In this document: in pieces, positions 50,281-58,207 of the stretch
Layout: each line of letters opens with the position of its first letter
How positions within the stretch are numbered: the first letter of the stretch is position 1
Assembly (NCBI RefSeq): GCF_900184735.1
Contig: NZ_LT855395.1
Location: 413,475-471,925 of the forward strand
Length of the DNA stretch: 58,451 bases
DNA from: Paucisalibacillus globulus
GTDB lineage: Bacteria; Bacillota; Bacilli; Bacillales; Amphibacillaceae
Direction of reading: 5' to 3'
The notes under the pieces: model-generated
What the model was told of the DNA's origin: nothing
Databases searched by the model: none
What the model saw: the letters and a program-made list of their open reading frames with translations, nothing else
Program-made: the position numbers and the translations under genes

Positions 50281-52095
50281 ATGCAAACATTCTATACCGT
50301 ACAATCTGGAGATACATTGGGTGCAATAGCGAACCGCTTTGGACTTACAACGCCAGCCCTTATCGCAGCTAATAACATACCATTTCCGGATACCATATTC
50401 ACCGGGCAACAACTGTCCATCCCACCTGGAATAAATCACTATAGGGTAAAAACAGGGGATACAGTATATAAAATAGCTTCTCACTTTAGAATTCCAACCT
50501 CCGTTATCATACAAGCAAATAACTTACAGGCTCCATACACCATTTATCCAGATCAACTTTTGGTAATACCATCTGGTCTTCCATTCTACACAGTGCAACC
50601 TGGTGATACACTATACCAAATCGGCCTACGCTATCATGTAATCACTGCCGGAAGGGTAAACACAGACCTCATTCGTACCACCAATAACTTATCATCTACT
50701 TTGATTTATCCTGGAATGCGACTTATTATTCCTTATGCTCCATTTGGAGAAGATGGGATCATTGCCTATACTGCCGGTGGAAGAGAAGGTTTTGATATTT
50801 GGCTTTATGATACGGCAAACGGGAGTACACATCAACTAACAGAGGGATTAGGCGAATCTTTCTCTGTTCCCTATTGGTCACCTAACCGTGACAGAATCGC
50901 GTTTGTGGGTAGAAACAACATCATCTATACAATCGATACTTCAACAGGTGCTATTGCTCGAATTGACCAGCTAGCAGAGGGATTAGGTGCATACCTCGAT
51001 TGGTCACCTGACAGTCAAACCATTGCCTACAGCAAACAAAACCAAATTATACTGTACAACGTAATCACACACCGTGTACAAACCATTACCCAACCAGGTG
51101 CGACCGATGTACAATGGTTTCCAACTGGCAATCAATTACTCTTTCAAGCACCCGATGAAAATGGAGTTAGTCAGTTATACCGTATTCAAGCAAACGGAAC
51201 TGGCCTAACTAAAATCACTGCCAATACAGGTGGAAGGTACAATCATGTTCGGCTCTCACCTAACGGCCGCTATGTACTCTATACGACACCCGGGGCTAGC
51301 ATCTCCATCATTCATATTATTGATTTATCTACTGGAAATGAATTGGAGGTAGAAGGTGGACCATTAGCAAAGAATTACTTCCCAACCTGGTCTCCTGATT
51401 CTTCGTCCATTGTCTTTAGTGCAACAGCATTAGAAGAACTAGGATACTTTTCTTTTATTAGACTAACGGACAATCAGGCAACTAATGAACAAACCATCGC
51501 CATATCAAACTGCTTCTCCACTCCAGTCGATTGGTCTACAAATGGTACCAAGATTGCTTACCTATCTGGTTGTACTACGGAATCGTCAGCTAGTGAGCTT
51601 TGGGTAACCGATATAACTAATCAAGCAACGAGAAAATTAATCACACACCCTAACATCACAGCTTTACAATGGGCACCAAAAGCAGTTAAAGAGACACTAG
51701 CAACCTATCGTAATAACCAATTCCGCGTTCAATTTCATTACCCATCACACTGGAAGCAGGTCAGTCCAGAACGGTATGAAGGAAACAATGGATTCTTCCA
51801 AATTGCAGCGATATCATCCCCTGCTTCTATTGACATGGTATGCCAGAATGAGGCACATCATATTCTATTGCCTTATGGCTCCAATCCACAAATCAGCCAT
51901 ACATCCATCCAAAATCAGGAAGCTTGTTTCATCTATCCATCATCCGACCAACCACCAGAAATGAACAACCAAGCCGCTCTTATCATACGATACCCAACTC
52001 CAATCACTATCGGCGAAGACACATACCAGTTCTTCATCTTATGGGCAGATAATGCACATATCAAAGAGATTGGGTCGTCCATTAGATTTATATAA
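50281..52095 (+). CDS. LysM protein with beta-propeller domain
   Basis: The protein has 604 aa. Three LysM modules lie at the N-terminus (from about 4, 52 and 101: TFYTVQSGDTLGAIANRFGL; HYRVKTGDTVYKIASHFRI; PFYTVQPGDTLYQIGLRYH). Residues about 160-470 form a TolB/PD40-type beta-propeller with repeats such as YWSPNRDRIAFVG, DWSPDSQTIAYS and TWSPDSSSIVFSA. A C-terminal ~130-residue domain follows. There is no signal peptide, a pattern seen in spore coat or cortex LysM proteins made in the mother cell; a spore role is inferred. TTGGAGGGATCTT precedes the ATG. Confidence 0.87.
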   Translation: MQTFYTVQSGDTLGAIANRFGLTTPALIAANNIPFPDTIFTGQQLSIPPGINHYRVKTGDTVYKIASHFRIPTSVIIQANNLQAPYTIYPDQLLVIPSGLPFYTVQPGDTLYQIGLRYHVITAGRVNTDLIRTTNNLSSTLIYPGMRLIIPYAPFGEDGIIAYTAGGREGFDIWLYDTANGSTHQLTEGLGESFSVPYWSPNRDRIAFVGRNNIIYTIDTSTGAIARIDQLAEGLGAYLDWSPDSQTIAYSKQNQIILYNVITHRVQTITQPGATDVQWFPTGNQLLFQAPDENGVSQLYRIQANGTGLTKITANTGGRYNHVRLSPNGRYVLYTTPGASISIIHIIDLSTGNELEVEGGPLAKNYFPTWSPDSSSIVFSATALEELGYFSFIRLTDNQATNEQTIAISNCFSTPVDWSTNGTKIAYLSGCTTESSASELWVTDITNQATRKLITHPNITALQWAPKAVKETLATYRNNQFRVQFHYPSHWKQVSPERYEGNNGFFQIAAISSPASIDMVCQNEAHHILLPYGSNPQISHTSIQNQEACFIYPSSDQPPEMNNQAALIIRYPTPITIGEDTYQFFILWADNAHIKEIGSSIRFI

Positions 52096-52152
52096 TTAGT
52101 CTTGGGAGGTAAATTACAACCTCCCTTCCCCTATGCCAAAAGCACTATAAAC

Positions 52153-52195
52153 TTCACACTAACTTAACACTAGGTTTACATTGCCTTGGTATAAT
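52153..52195 (+). promoter_or_regulatory. PhoP-box-like promoter of the chemoreceptor gene
   Basis: TTCACA (52153), TTAACA (52164) and TTTACA (52175) lie exactly 11 bp apart. Nine bases on is a perfect TATAAT (52190-52195) with no sigma-A -35. This matches the PhoP-box plus -10 layout of Bacillus Pho promoters and of the pstS promoter in this window. It lies 40 bp before the start codon. Confidence 0.75.
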
Positions 52196-52235
52196 TTACT
52201 ATATATTTAATTTTGGTTTGTGTGGGGGATCAATA

Positions 52236-53927
52236 TTGAACAACAAGAAGAATAAAAACAGTACCAATAAAGGAATTAGCCTTAGAAAACGATTATTATT
52301 TTTATTCCTTTTCTTATTAACGATTTCCGTTATTGCAGTCGGAATTAGCGCCTATACCATCGCTAGAAATACAACCATGGAAGCTATTGAAAAGCGACTC
52401 TTAAGTGAAGTAGATTTAACGAGTGATATTGCTAGTAATTTGAAATTCACGTATGTGAGTGATGAAGACTACTTCTGGCAACAACTCGAAATCAGCGTAC
52501 GCTCGCAAAAGACAAAGCTTGATAACGATGGAATGATATCGGATTACTTTTACATAACGGAGAATAATGTAGTACCGTTTAAGATCAGTGAAAAGAGCAT
52601 GATAGACATACCAACATCGCTAATCTCGACCATTCAAGAAAAAGGACATGGTACCATTCACCAAGTAGTTAACGGAGAAGACTATACCTTTAGTTTTGCA
52701 CAGATGGATGAAATAAACGGAACCTATGTGGTTATGGTGAAAACATCCAGCTACATGGGGAGCATTAATCAAATGGCCTATCTCATGATTGGCATTATAG
52801 CCTTTAGTTTGTTCGTTGCAACCATCACTGTACTGATTTTCGTACGAGGTATTACGAAACCATTAAGTTTACTTAGAGAAAAGATGAAAAATGTTCGCAA
52901 TGGTAACTTACAAGAGGATACGTTTACCATTAACACAACCATCCCTGAAATTTCTTCGTTAGTAAAAAGCTATCAAGCTATGGTAACCCATATGAGGTCC
53001 ATGCTAACTCAAATTAATGAGACAACCACTCAACTGGAGAAAACGGGAAGTGAATTACAACAGTCATCTGAGGGAACACTCGCATCAAGTCAGGATCTAA
53101 TAGAAGCCATATACGCAGTAAAAAATGGCGCAGAGGAAACTGCTAGTAGTTCGGAAGGAAGCTCCGAATCCTTCCAATCCATGAAGTTAAAAATAGAGAC
53201 CATGATCCGTAGCATGGAAACCATCTTTTCCAATGCACATGATATGGACATGTCAGCAAAACACGGTGAAAGAAACATAACGGAACTTATTAATACGGTA
53301 AATTCGTTCAATCAAGATTTTGACCATTTAACGTCAACCATACATCATGTTCAAACCTATTCCAATTCCATCAGTCAACTGGTTGGATTAATTCAGGGTA
53401 TTGCAGATCAAACCAAGTTATTATCGTTAAATGCATCGATTGAGGCTGCTAGAGCAGGGGATGCTGGTAAAGGGTTTGCGGTGGTGGCAAATGAGGTCGG
53501 TAAACTTGCCGAGCAATCATCTAGTGCAGCCGAACAAATAACGGAGTCCATTTCCAATATGGACACAATTACTACAACTGCCACAAAAGAATTCGAACAA
53601 ATGCTTTCTAAAACAAAAACAACATTAAATAAATCCAGTGAAGCGAAACAATCTATCGACGAAATGATGCAGGAAATACTTGATGTAAACACTGAACTCG
53701 AACGTGTTCAGGGAGAACTGAAAGTATTAGAACAGTTCTTACCTCCACTCGAAAGAGAAACCGCTGGATTCTTATCCGTATCCCAAGAAACACTAGCAAG
53801 TGCCGAAGAGATGTTAGCTAGTAGTGAAAGTCAAGTGAAGCAAATGGAACACACACATGAGGTTGGATTAAAGCTTACCACCATATCCAAGTCCCTTATA
53901 GAAAGTACGAAGCAATATAAAATTTAA
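52236..53927 (+). CDS. Methyl-accepting chemotaxis protein
   Basis: The protein has 563 aa. TM1 is at about 20-42, an external sensor domain of about 138 aa (Cache-like) at 43-180, TM2 at 181-203, HAMP to about 257, then the long coiled-coil signalling domain with tip [19 protein letters not shown] followed by [16 protein letters not shown] chose the TTG at 52236, eight bases after GGGGGA. The external domain likely binds a small ligand. A PhoP-box-type promoter and the neighbouring pst operon suggest a role in phosphate starvation. Confidence 0.9.
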
Positions 53928-53935
53928 AAACAAAA

Positions 53936-54242
53936 GAGGCTGGGACATAACTAAAAGTATAAGTTGGGAACCTGAACGAAACGCCACATCAGCTCCGGAA
54001 ATATACGGAGACTCCTGCGGGAGGATAGGCATCGGTGAGACCCCGGAAGAGCTTTAGCTCTGAGGAGGCTCACCAGCCGCCCGCGGAAAGCGTAGGGCAT
54101 CGGTGAGACCCCGGAAGAGCTTTAGCTCTGAGGAGGCTCACCAGCCGCCCGCGGAAAGCGTAGTATATTTCCGGAGCGGGTCTATGCGCTTTTCATGTTC
54201 GTTCGGATTTTAATCAACTAAAACTCTTTTGTCCCAGCCTCT
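53936..54242 (-). repeat. Family A palindromic element, copy 5, with 68-bp duplication
   Basis: A complete copy in the same orientation as copy 4. A 68-bp unit (starting GCATCGGTGAGACCCCGGAA and ending at CGTAG plus G) occurs twice in tandem at 54029-54096 and 54097-54164, covering the inner hairpin. It lies between converging MCP and pstB genes. Confidence 0.93.
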
Positions 54243-54285
54243 TTCTCTATTCATCAAGGGGGGAAGATGAAATTCAATATATAGT

Positions 54286-55122
54286 TTATCCAAAACGACC
54301 AGAAATATAATCTTCCGTACGATTATCAGTTGGTTTTGTAAAGATAGTATCAGTAACATCAAACTCCACTACTTCTCCATTCAAGAAGAACGCAGTACGG
54401 TCTGAGATACGTGCAGCTTGTTGCATATTGTGTGTCACAATAATAATGGAATAGTCTTTTTTCAATTCCTGCACTAAGTCTTCGATTTTAAGGGTTGATT
54501 TCGGATCTAATGCTGAAGTCGGCTCATCCATTAAAATAACATCTGGTTCAATCGCTAATGTGCGAGCGATACATAAACGTTGTTGTTGTCCACCAGATAA
54601 ACCGTACGCATTTTCCTTTAAACGATCCTTCACTTCGTCCCAAATGTAAGCACCGCGTAGACTTTTCTCCACAATTTCATCTAGTATCTTCTTGTTACGA
54701 ATTCCATGAATTCGTGGACCATAGGCAATGTTATCGTAAATAGACTTCGGAAATGGATTCGGTTTTTGGAATACCATCCCAACACGAGTTCTAAGGTTCT
54801 CCACTTTAAAGGATTTATCTAAAATACTTTGTCCTTTATACGTGATCTCACCTGTAGTTCGTACTGTCGGAACTAATTCCACCATACGATTTAATGTTTT
54901 TAAATAGGTAGACTTCCCACATCCAGAAGGACCAATAATCGCCGTTACTTCTTTTTCATTAATTTGTAGATTAATATCCTTTAAAGCATGTGTTTCACCA
55001 TACCAAAGATTTAAATCCTTTGTATCAAAGACTACTTGATTATTCGCATGTACAGCAGATGCTATATCTGTTTTACTATTGTTTACCATCGTTATATTCT
55101 CCTTAACTGTCAAAAGACTCAT
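54286..55122 (-). CDS. pstB: Phosphate ABC transporter ATPase PstB
   Basis: The protein has 278 aa. Walker [10 protein letters not shown] is at 64-72, signature [14 protein letters not shown], Walker [13 protein letters not shown]. It drives phosphate import through PstCA. Two in-frame starts each have a good ribosome binding site: the ATG at 55122 after AAGGAGG, used here, and an ATG at 55089 after AAGGAG. Only one pstB and no phoU follow, unlike operons with pstBA/pstBB. Last gene of pstSCAB. Confidence 0.96.
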
Positions 55123-55140
55123 TGTTATTTCCTCCTTGGT

Positions 55141-56025
55141 TTAGAAACGTTGTTGGAATTTATTACGGATAAATATTGCTGTTGAATTTAATACAAATAA
55201 CAATACTAATAGAACGATAATGGTACCTGCAGCAAGATTTGCATATTCCGCAACTAACGATGAATCAATTGTCCAATAATAAATTTGCATCGGTAGAGCT
55301 GTAAATTTATCAAAGATTCCTTCCGGGAAAGGAATAATTAACGCAGGGATTCCGATTACTGTAAGTGGTGCTGTCTCACCAATTGCACGGGAAAGGGCTA
55401 AAATCGCACCTGTTAACATACCCGGTAATGCAGCAGGTAAAATAACATTTTTGATTGTTTGCCATTTCGTTGCTCCCATACCGTAAGATGCTTCACTTAA
55501 GAATCCTGGAACAGCACGTATGGCTTCTTGAGCGGCAACAATTACGATAGGAAGAATGAGTAGTGATAGGGTTAAACCACCAGCTAGGATAATATTCCCC
55601 ATTTCCATTGCCCGAACAAATATCGTCAGTCCTAAAATCCCATAAACTATTGATGGTACACCTGCTAGATTCGATATATTCGTTTGAATAATAGATTGCA
55701 AGCGACCTTTTTTCGCATATAATTCCAGATAGATTGCAGTCCCAATTCCTAGAATTAACGTAACAGGTGCTACGACTAACATCATCCATAACGTACCAAG
55801 TAAGGCACCCATTATTCCTGCACGTTCTGCATCTGTTGATTGCCTTCCAGTTAGAAAGTTCCAGTCTATCCAACCAATACTATCCACTACAACTCGATAG
55901 ATTAATATAGCTAAAACAATAAGTCCAAAGAGAGTCGCAAGGAAGAACAAGGCCTTTGAAATATTATTTTTGGCAATTCTACCATTCATGCGCTTCGTAA
56001 CTTGTTCTACATTTAAATACTTCAT
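55141..56025 (-). CDS. pstA: Phosphate ABC transporter permease PstA
   Basis: The protein has 294 aa and six TM helices. The EAA-type coupling region is SYGMGATKWQTIKNVILPAALPG. IGETAPLTVIGIPA is typical of PstA. The start at 56025 lies 9 nt after GGGAGG; the in-frame ATG at 56067 would overlap pstC. It forms the channel with PstC. Confidence 0.95.
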   Translation of the reverse strand: MKYLNVEQVTKRMNGRIAKNNISKALFFLATLFGLIVLAILIYRVVVDSIGWIDWNFLTGRQSTDAERAGIMGALLGTLWMMLVVAPVTLILGIGTAIYLELYAKKGRLQSIIQTNISNLAGVPSIVYGILGLTIFVRAMEMGNIILAGGLTLSLLILPIVIVAAQEAIRAVPGFLSEASYGMGATKWQTIKNVILPAALPGMLTGAILALSRAIGETAPLTVIGIPALIIPFPEGIFDKFTALPMQIYYWTIDSSLVAEYANLAAGTIIVLLVLLFVLNSTAIFIRNKFQQRF

Positions 56026-56026
56026 C

Positions 56027-56980
56027 CTAGTATTCCTCCCTAAACTTACGAGAGACGTATCTTGCAAGTAGATTCATTAATAATGTGAATACAAATAAAG
56101 TCATGGCAACAGCATATAAGCTATAATAAATCGTCGTTCCAGCTGCCGCTTCTCCACCAGATACTTCAACAATATAAGCCGTCATTGTCTGCATAGATTG
56201 AGTTATATCAAAGGTAAAGTTTTTCGAGCTACCACTAGCAATCGTAACGATCATGGTTTCTCCAATTGCACGAGAAATTCCTAGTACAAAGGAAGCAATA
56301 ATCCCTGATAACGCTGCAGGAATTACAACCTTAAACGTTGTTTCCAATTTAGTAGCCCCTAGACCTAATGCCCCTTCACGCATTGCTTTAGGAACAGAGC
56401 TCATGGCATCTTCAGAAAGCGAAGCAATCATCGGGATAATCATGATTCCCATGACAATACCAGGACTTAGAATATTAGTCGCTGCCACATCTGGCCAGAA
56501 TGAACGGATAAGTGGTGTCACAAAAGTAAATGCAAAGAATCCATAAACGATTGTTGGAATTCCAGCTAGAATTTCTAACATTGGTTTTAACACTCTTCTT
56601 ACTCGGTCGGATGCGTACTCACTTAGATAGATTGCAGCCATTAGACCAATTGGTCCTGCCACCAACATAGCAATTGCCGATGAAATGATTGTTCCATTTA
56701 ACAATGGCAATACACCAAATTCTGGATTTTGACTCATTGGCTTTAATACAGTTCCAGTAAAGAAATCCCAAATAGGAATACGTTTGAAAAATTCAATTGT
56801 CTCGGATAATAGTGTGAATACAATTCCAACTGTCGTAAACACAGTGATGATCGCAAACAAAAATAGCACTACTGGAATTAACTTTTCCGTTATACTAGAC
56901 AAACTTTTGCTTTGTTTGTTTTTTGCAATCATACCTTTTACATCGATGGAGTTATTCTCGTACTTGTTGTTTGCTGCCAT
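56027..56980 (-). CDS. pstC: Phosphate ABC transporter permease PstC
   Basis: The protein has 317 aa and six TM helices. Coupling loop EGALGLGATKLETTFKVVIPAALSG; AIYLSEYASDRVR and SRAIGETMIVTIASG are PstC-typical. The start at 56980 follows GGAAGGAG (11 nt away); a TTG at 57001 is the alternative. It ends 1 bp before pstA. A hairpin separates it from pstS. Confidence 0.95.
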   Translation of the reverse strand: MAANNKYENNSIDVKGMIAKNKQSKSLSSITEKLIPVVLFLFAIITVFTTVGIVFTLLSETIEFFKRIPIWDFFTGTVLKPMSQNPEFGVLPLLNGTIISSAIAMLVAGPIGLMAAIYLSEYASDRVRRVLKPMLEILAGIPTIVYGFFAFTFVTPLIRSFWPDVAATNILSPGIVMGIMIIPMIASLSEDAMSSVPKAMREGALGLGATKLETTFKVVIPAALSGIIASFVLGISRAIGETMIVTIASGSSKNFTFDITQSMQTMTAYIVEVSGGEAAAGTTIYYSLYAVAMTLFVFTLLMNLLARYVSRKFREEY

Positions 56981-57013
56981 CGCACGCAGCTCTCCTTCCA
57001 AATCGTAAAGTCA

Positions 57014-57090: not shown

Positions 57091-58083
57091 TTATTGAAGT
57101 CCTTTTAATTCCTCAACTAAGCTTGAAGCTTCTTCTTCAGGAATTGGAGCAAATCCAGTTTCACCTGCAACATTATTAGCATTTTCCATGACGTAGATTG
57201 CATAATCTAGTACTTGTGCTTTGTCTTTTGCATTGTTTACGTTCAGGTACGTGAATACTGGGCGAGTAAATCCTGCATAATCTCCATCTTCAGCAATCGT
57301 ATCAAGAGATGGTATTACTGCACCTTCACCAAAATCAATTCCTACAGCATTAACTTTTTCTTTGTTGCTATCATAGTAACCAAATCCAAAGAAGCCAATT
57401 GCATTTGTGTCTTCAGAAACTAGTGTTACTAAAGTTGAGTAATCTTGTTGAAGATTAATATCACTAACTAAATCTTGCTCTTCCAAGATGTTTTCATAAA
57501 AGAACTCATAAGTTCCGTGGTTTTCGTTTGGACCGTAAGTTTGGATTTTTTCATTAGGCCAGTCAGCATTTACATCAGACCAGTTTGTATATTCGCCAAG
57601 GAAGATTCCTTTTACTTGATCAGTAGTTAATTCAGTTGCCCAGTCATTATCAGGGTGTGTCACAATAGTTAGACCATCTAAAGCTACTTTTAATTCTTTT
57701 ACTTCAATTCCAAGCTCTTCTGCTTTTGATTTTTCTTCATCTTTAATTAAGCGAGAGGCATCGTTAAAGTCTGTACCATTTTCTTGCAAGAATTTTTCAA
57801 AACCTGCAGAAGTACCAGCACGGCTTACTTCTACTGAAACATTTGGTTGTTCATCAAGCATATAATTTTCAGCTAGTTTAGACATAAGTGGAAATACAGT
57901 ACCAGATCCATCGATTACTACGCTACCTTCTAATTCTTCTGAAGCTTTATCTTCGCTTCCGTTATCTGTGTTTTCTGAAGCGTTATCTCCTGATTTGTTA
58001 TCTTCTTCGCTATCCCCACATGCAACAAGCACTACTGCTAAAGCTGCTACAACTAGGAACATTAAATACTTTTTGAATTTCAT
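57091..58083 (-). CDS. pstS: Phosphate-binding lipoprotein PstS
   Basis: The protein has 330 aa. The signal peptide ends at a lipobox with C22 (VVLVAC). An acidic Asn/Ser/Asp spacer follows. The phosphate site is seen in VVIDGSGTVFPLMSKLAE and EVSRAGTSAGFEKFL, with NDASRLIKDEEK. It scavenges Pi at the outer face of the membrane and gives it to PstCA. It is preceded by a PhoP-box promoter, as expected for a Pho regulon gene. AAGTGC... GGGGAGGACAATTTTAG precedes the ATG. Confidence 0.97.
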   Translation of the reverse strand: MKFKKYLMFLVVAALAVVLVACGDSEEDNKSGDNASENTDNGSEDKASEELEGSVVIDGSGTVFPLMSKLAENYMLDEQPNVSVEVSRAGTSAGFEKFLQENGTDFNDASRLIKDEEKSKAEELGIEVKELKVALDGLTIVTHPDNDWATELTTDQVKGIFLGEYTNWSDVNADWPNEKIQTYGPNENHGTYEFFYENILEEQDLVSDINLQQDYSTLVTLVSEDTNAIGFFGFGYYDSNKEKVNAVGIDFGEGAVIPSLDTIAEDGDYAGFTRPVFTYLNVNNAKDKAQVLDYAIYVMENANNVAGETGFAPIPEEEASSLVEELKGLQ

Positions 58084-58153: not shown

Positions 58154-58207
58154 AGTATAGGGGGCGAATGTTAAGTAGATATGGATTAAATGTAAAGGGT
58201 TTGTAAA
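58154..58207 (-). promoter_or_regulatory. PhoP boxes and -10 of the pst operon
   Basis: On the minus strand, four hexamers start every 11 bp: TTTACA (58207-58202), TTTACA (58196-58191), a weak TCCATA (58185-58180) and TTAACA (58174-58169). Nine bases on is the -10 TATACT (58159-58154). This is the classical Bacillus PhoP-activated promoter layout. Confidence 0.88.

Follow-up and report, generated by a model that had tools for sequence, protein, structure and literature searches.

A chemoreceptor gene of Paucisalibacillus globulus with a conserved PhoP-type promoter near the pst genes

The stretch of DNA analysed here, called the window, comprises 58,451 nucleotides from Paucisalibacillus globulus (contig NZ_LT855395.1, positions 413,475 to 471,925 of the forward strand) and carries a gene for a methyl-accepting chemotaxis protein (MCP), whose promoter is the subject of this study. 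The gene lies on the plus strand at 52236..53927 and codes for 563 residues; its most likely start is the TTG at 52236, which is preceded by GGGGGA. Three PhoP-box hexamers were found upstream, on the same strand, by inspection and motif scan: TTCACA (52153..52158), TTAACA (52164..52169) and TTTACA (52175..52180), the last of which stands where a -35 element would and is kept in the set of 84 loci described below. They follow one another in an 11-bp register, and 9 bp separate the third from a TATAAT (52190-52195). Since T52187 and G52188 are found one base ahead of TATAAT, the -10 element is of the extended type (TGgTATAAT; TGGTATAAT, 52187..52195, plus strand); it ends 40 nt ahead of the start codon. 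The motif scan also gave a possible weak fourth box, GCACTA (52142..52147, plus strand), in register and matching the hexamer at 4 of 6 positions. A first reading of the locus made from the sequence alone (hereafter the sequence-only reading) had described the three hexamers, their 11-bp repeat and the 9-bp distance correctly to the base; it had also described a perfect TATAAT with no -35, and this holds for the missing -35, but the -10 is an extended one. Scanned with Rfam at gathering thresholds, positions 52000-54400 gave no match.

On sequence grounds, the MCP is a member of a family whose defining feature is a sensor domain with no match in Pfam. The family was delineated with the N-terminal 270 residues as first query, full-sensor matches being those that reached 60.9 bits (the best match below them had 40.8); such a match was present in 27 of 41 related genomes. 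Among the named relatives, the nearest were Paucisalibacillus sp. EB02 (84% identity over the query), P. globulus (80%) and Ornithinibacillus californiensis (70%); NCBI places the last two species in class Bacilli, order Caryophanales. Profile A1, built from the 27 sensors, found matches in 59 of 159 genomes of the family, in 155 of 397 genomes of the order (68 of 135 genera) and in 41 of 398 genomes of a class sample, 20 of them outside the order; family, order and class are here the ranks of the search tool's own taxonomy. There was one match per genome at these thresholds, except in G073 and G499, where it was split in two pieces. The G073 copy is divided over two contigs, and the copy of another genome (G113, C4) has internal stop codons.

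The promoter was compared between orthologues in three tests, using a box-triple score (maximum 18) and a joint score that adds to the three boxes the -10 element at 9-bp spacing (maximum 24); the MCP promoter of the window is perfect, at 24/24. In the first test, for which position 4 of the hexamer was relaxed to A or C, the box triples of the 27 orthologue loci scored from 16 to 18 (13 at 18, 13 at 17 and 1 at 16). The second test bore on 84 loci drawn from the 206 distinct genomes that the family and order searches had matched: the window, L007-L009 and 80 stretches chosen, mainly one per genus, before their upstream DNA was seen. Some of the 27 loci had been seen earlier, and some of their genomes are also in this set, which leaves out a few matches near contig ends and two without listed place. 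The sequence-only reading had staked its proposal on the 11-bp phase being kept in orthologous loci, and so it was: at phase 11, 58 of the 84 loci scored at least 17/18 (24 of them 18), as against at most one locus at any of phases 6-10 and 12-16. The lowest locus of that run, L106 (12), reached at least 20 in joint score when anchored on the profile and not on the guessed start.

The joint score, taken within 350 nt, was at least 20 for 78 of the 84 orthologues, at least 21 for 68 and at least 23 for 27. For comparison, 1174 control stretches were taken upstream of other reading frames in these loci, the start being set at the first ATG; here the corresponding numbers were 39, 26 and 0, and pstS accounted for 17 of the 26 that scored at least 21. 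When phases 9-13 were combined with spacings 5-13, phase 11 with spacing 9 gave 68 loci and the runner-up combination 29. The consensus of the 78 best promoters reads TTTACA-N5-TTTACA-N5-TTAACATT....TTGnTATAAT, with the weak fourth box again visible; the T and G of the extended -10 are the commonest bases at their positions (0.65 and 0.74 of the 78 aligned promoters). The spacers are far less conserved, box 1 lies anywhere from 54 to 205 nt ahead of the chosen start across the 84 loci, and the median pairwise identity of the 84 sensors is 34%, which together argue for selection on the boxes. The third test took 12 loci, 7 of them from one genus, out of the 20 matched genomes that lie outside the order; joint scores were at least 20 for 11 and at least 21 for 8. 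Beyond the seven-member genus the evidence is thinner, with box triples alone at 15-17; for L177, phase 11 was no better than other phases.

These data also bear on whether the site could be an ordinary sigma-A promoter, with TTTACA of box 3 as -35 and, after a 16-bp spacer, TACTAT (52197-52202) as -10. A sigma-70-like match of 9/12 is indeed present there, but such matches are near chance level in the region (8 found, against a mean of 5.9 in shuffled sequences), the relatives keep the element at 9 bp, their consensus shows no second -10 at 16 bp, and three in-phase boxes would be left unexplained. We consider this explanation highly improbable.

Are similar promoters found elsewhere in the host genome (3.92 Mb, 23 contigs)? 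In the window, pstS, which codes for the phosphate-binding lipoprotein (PBP_like_2 match), lies on the minus strand at 57091..58083. Its promoter (58154..58207, minus strand) is 6 kb from that of the MCP gene and presents four box positions, TTTACA/TTTACA/TCCATA/TTAACA (58207-58169), the third imperfect, then 9 bp and TATACT. The claim that the two promoters have the same geometry thus stands as to the 11-bp repeats and the 9 bp to TATACT, and has to be amended for one box of the four. Genome-wide, the exact TTHAYA-N5 triple occurred at six positions (five separate sites) and the reversed pattern nowhere. Three of these five sites lie ahead of phoU (PF01895; L002), an ABC-2 permease gene (PF01061; L004) whose product in our judgement resembles TagG, and the MCP gene; of the other two, L001 has no gene that we could find behind it and L006 lies ahead of what we read as a reductase-like gene. 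With one mismatch allowed, pstS and a GDPD gene (PF03009; L147) joined the set, which grew to 33 matches against 21 for the reversed control, i.e. near background. As the one-mismatch pattern fails to discriminate, it is the conservation test, and not the motif alone, that carries weight. The genes behind 27 of the 33 matches were inspected (excluded were four matches overlapping another one, namely L003, L052, L061 and one at pstS to which no locus was assigned, and two more likewise without assigned locus). The joint scores in the host were 24 for the MCP gene and phoU and 22 for pstS and the GDPD gene, the last three genes each being best at the 9-bp spacing. Nine host MCPs passed the Pfam cut-off, and the eight others, with automatically placed starts, scored 14-17.

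The regulator that would act on these sites is encoded, together with its kinase, between mdh (TIGR01763) and a polA-like gene (identified by eye), an order mdh-regulator-kinase-polA that is also that of B. subtilis. The kinase is above the NCBIfam PnpS cut-off (500.6 versus 400 bits). It is because of this PnpS-type neighbour and of the gene order that we call the regulator PhoP. The sCache_like Pfam domain of the B. subtilis PhoR, sought as a possible shared sensor, was absent from the host genome, and the PnpS/PhoR-type kinase (L145:3829-5193) has only a short stretch ahead of its first recognised domain; phosphate limitation may therefore be sensed differently from B. subtilis.

Another regulator of the OmpR type, for instance WalR, might bind the repeats in place of PhoP. 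The WalR box also has an 11-bp period, related regulators having a common half-site spacing, and the highest score of the host's PhoP-like regulator was with the YycF model, below its cut-off (260.7 versus 340). Against this, the hexamer agrees with the one published for PHO boxes (available text of PMC3036859), the same architecture is found at the host pstS, phoU and GDPD genes, and pstS genes dominate the high-scoring controls. Binding by a regulator other than PhoP appears very unlikely to us.

A further concern was that the boxes might be part of the adjacent pst operon, or its relics. In the window, pstB, pstA and pstC (54286..57001, minus strand; pstB by an ABC_tran match, the pst names resting on inspection of the sequence and gene order) are convergent with the MCP gene, and the operon has its own boxes 6 kb away. 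The neighbourhoods of the 84 loci were scanned over about 8 kb on each side, five stretches being shortened by contig ends. Genes of the pst type were near the MCP gene in 29 loci, an Na/Pi (sodium/inorganic phosphate) cotransporter gene (PF02690, PF01895) in 23, and either in 47; the linkage to pst is recurrent but partial. The synteny between MCP and pst genes that the sequence-only reading had suggested comparing across relatives was accordingly borne out for those 29 loci, pst being undetected in the rest. Such closeness would fit hitch-hiking boxes, but among the 37 loci where neither pst nor Na/Pi genes were detected the joint score was still at least 20 in 34 and at least 21 in 29, which makes this explanation scarcely credible.

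The recurrent order, not every gene of which is present in each locus, is ispG - x - MCP - DUF1189 - Na/Pi cotransporter - sodA - major facilitator superfamily gene - penicillin-binding-protein-like gene (by eye) - pstS, pstC. The ispG-to-pst segment of B. subtilis is close to it and is not known to include an MCP gene. Some of the neighbours have boxes of their own scoring at least 17/18: 9 of 29 DUF1189 genes and 12 of 23 Na/Pi genes (e.g. L115:9729-12352; L094, L142, L082, L128). This suggests that the boxed genes may be further undescribed Pho-regulon members.

Two other features flank the MCP gene in the window. The gene upstream (50281-52095) codes for three LysM domains and a beta-propeller of the DPPIV_N/PD40 type; a LysM/beta-propeller-like gene was found in 5 of the 84 loci, window included. 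Downstream, between the MCP gene and pstB, lies a GC-rich repeat (53960-54165) for which 43 matches, mostly partial, were counted in the host genome, 40 of 162 candidates having been scored. The sequence around it, AGAGGCTGGGAC ... GTCCCAGCCTCT, looks by eye like a possible two-way terminator, which the terminator scan did not flag.

What the receptor senses was approached through its protein sequence. The MCP signal domain (residues 334-491; PF00015, 112.9 bits for a cut-off of 34.6) and the HAMP domain (202-254; PF00672, 25.2 for 25) are both above the Pfam cut-offs. The extracellular sensor, of about 140 residues (~39-182), was delimited by eye between two hydrophobic segments. For the window protein Pfam gave no match to this sensor; among the 27 members no single family was matched by more than 2, and then weakly. 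The four-helix-bundle sensor 4HB_MCP_1 was found in 2 of the 27 (best E 0.052) and not in the window protein; dCache_1 matched one of the 27 (E 0.018), the window protein having no Cache Pfam match. An AlphaFold2 model of residues 38-186, made from four sequences, shows helices followed by a PAS/Cache-like sheet; its topology fits sCache (a long helix, then a PAS-like antiparallel sheet), with moderate confidence (predicted local distance difference test 71.8, predicted template-modelling score 0.64). Foldseek gave no match in the PDB at E 0.001 or better for this model. Its best matches were Bacillus MCPs and Cache domains mixed with unrelated folds, among them 9a65 (YvaQ-McpB model, E 0.0048) and 7w0w (McpA of B. 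velezensis, E 0.015), a weak similarity. The sensor profile run against solved structures returned one irrelevant match (E 0.012). Positions 54, 44, 57, 142 and 89 are basic in most of the 84 sensors (96, 88, 85, 74 and 69%, respectively), position 57 being a serine in the window protein. This pattern, as read from the alignment, neither shows nor excludes Pi binding.

A PhoP-regulated receptor need not sense phosphate: starvation could retune taxis to another cue, such as a carbon source, a surface, pH or a repellent. An unclassified sensor, unmatched by Pfam in the window protein and with nothing but scattered weak matches among the 27 members, leaves room for this, as does the alignment of the 84 sequences, where beyond residue 57 the share of basic residues at any one position never exceeds 74%. 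Yet the recurrent neighbours of the MCP gene are Pi transporters, and two Pseudomonas aeruginosa MCPs, CtpH and CtpL, whose expression is likewise raised at low Pi, do sense Pi (available part of PMC4926252). We therefore see another cue as somewhat unlikely and, by analogy, a ligand related to phosphorus as on balance probable. Pi itself and Pi-loaded PstS are both candidate stimuli.

Our interpretation, to which we give a probability of roughly 0.8, is that the MCP is a transmembrane chemoreceptor switched on by phosphorylated PhoP at low phosphate, which biases swimming toward phosphorus sources. From PhoP biology, phosphorylated PhoP would be expected at low phosphate to bind the tandem 11-bp repeats, to replace the -35 element in its role and to recruit the sigma-A RNA polymerase to the extended -10. 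The new receptors would then enter the CheA arrays (CheA is found in 40 of the 41 relatives, including all 27 with an orthologue) and bias swimming; that this would amount to taxis to Pi is proposed by analogy with CtpH and CtpL. PhoP-type regulation, as the sequence-only reading had proposed, is strongly supported at the level of sequence, by the excess of joint scores of at least 21/24 (68 of 84 versus 26 of 1174) and by the presence in the host of a PnpS-type kinase with an adjacent PhoP-like regulator. PhoP thus very probably binds and induces the MCP promoter.

A number of observations weigh against this interpretation. One-mismatch boxes also precede several genes without known phosphate role, or fall inside genes; the permease scores 21 at the 9-bp spacing and 22 at 11 bp; and the region upstream of phoP itself reaches only 18 in joint score. 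The regulator that we call PhoP exceeds none of the curated cut-offs of the 25 families listed (out of 100). Six of the 84 loci are below 20 (L069 at 16, L098 and L109 at 18, L108, L128 and L132 at 19). No member of the family turned up in 242 of the 397 genomes of the order sample, and 13 of the 40 CheA-bearing relatives are without the receptor. Lastly, as the sensor has no named family and its model is of moderate confidence, nothing in the receptor protein itself points to phosphate.

A wider proposal would be an old Gram-positive phosphate-taxis system: a family of PhoP-induced receptors of unclassified sensor type, recurrent beside the Na/Pi cotransporter and pstSCAB, reading Pi directly or through the PstS lipoprotein, independent of the Pseudomonas CtpH and CtpL, present in about four of ten sampled genomes of the order and missing from B. 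subtilis. We advance it tentatively, as something short of an even chance. The receptor is not known from that model organism. Descriptions of the Pho response of Bacilli comprise uptake, phosphatases and the replacement of teichoic acids; if real, a conserved receptor under PhoP control would add directed movement to this response and offer a ready target for ligand finding. It would also provide a physiological setting for an MCP family without named sensor domain, and mark its DUF1189 and Na/Pi cotransporter neighbours as likely Pho-regulon members.

No chemoreceptor is known among the members of the B. subtilis Pho regulon, and a term search for 'chemotaxis' did not find the word in the available text of two reviews (PMC6232261, PMC4415409). 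No Pho-regulated MCP of this group was among the matches listed in open-licence literature, and a subscription paper could hold one. As far as the available texts go, MCP genes figure in the table of changed genes of a Paenibacillus sonchi RNA sequencing study and could not be tied to this receptor family (PMC7793946), and a listing for Priestia megaterium B1 has MCP and pst genes with no link between them (PMC11302069).

The Bacillus receptors McpA, McpB and YvaQ have the topology transmembrane segment-sensor-transmembrane segment-HAMP-MCP signal domain; they are sigma-D dependent and have mostly larger sensors. The present receptor has this topology in common with such Cache-type receptors, but upstream of its gene no sigma-D-like site rose above the level of shuffled sequence. 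Its promoter is akin to those of the PhoP-activated B. subtilis Pho regulon, such as pstS, for which the PHO box is given as TT(A/T/C)ACA with a spacer of 5 ± 2 bp (available text of PMC3036859): tandem TT(A/T/C)ACA repeats with spacers of about 5 bp are found at the MCP gene, and, as at the host pstS, they adjoin the -10 where a -35 would otherwise stand. A transducer-like protein of Campylobacter jejuni is described as a chemoreceptor for iron and phosphate (PMC6250842); the likeness lies in this tie to phosphate taxis, by description only, no Pho-box control being seen in the part of the source available. The closest known systems are CtpH and CtpL, through which phosphate chemotaxis was described in Pseudomonas: according to the available part of PMC4926252, both mediate Pi taxis, CtpH binding Pi and CtpL binding Pi-loaded PstS. 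The receptor described here belongs to Bacilli and stands behind TTHACA-type boxes, and its sensor of about 140 residues, modelled as a helix and a PAS/Cache-like beta sheet, does not match the four-helix bundle of the CtpH type.
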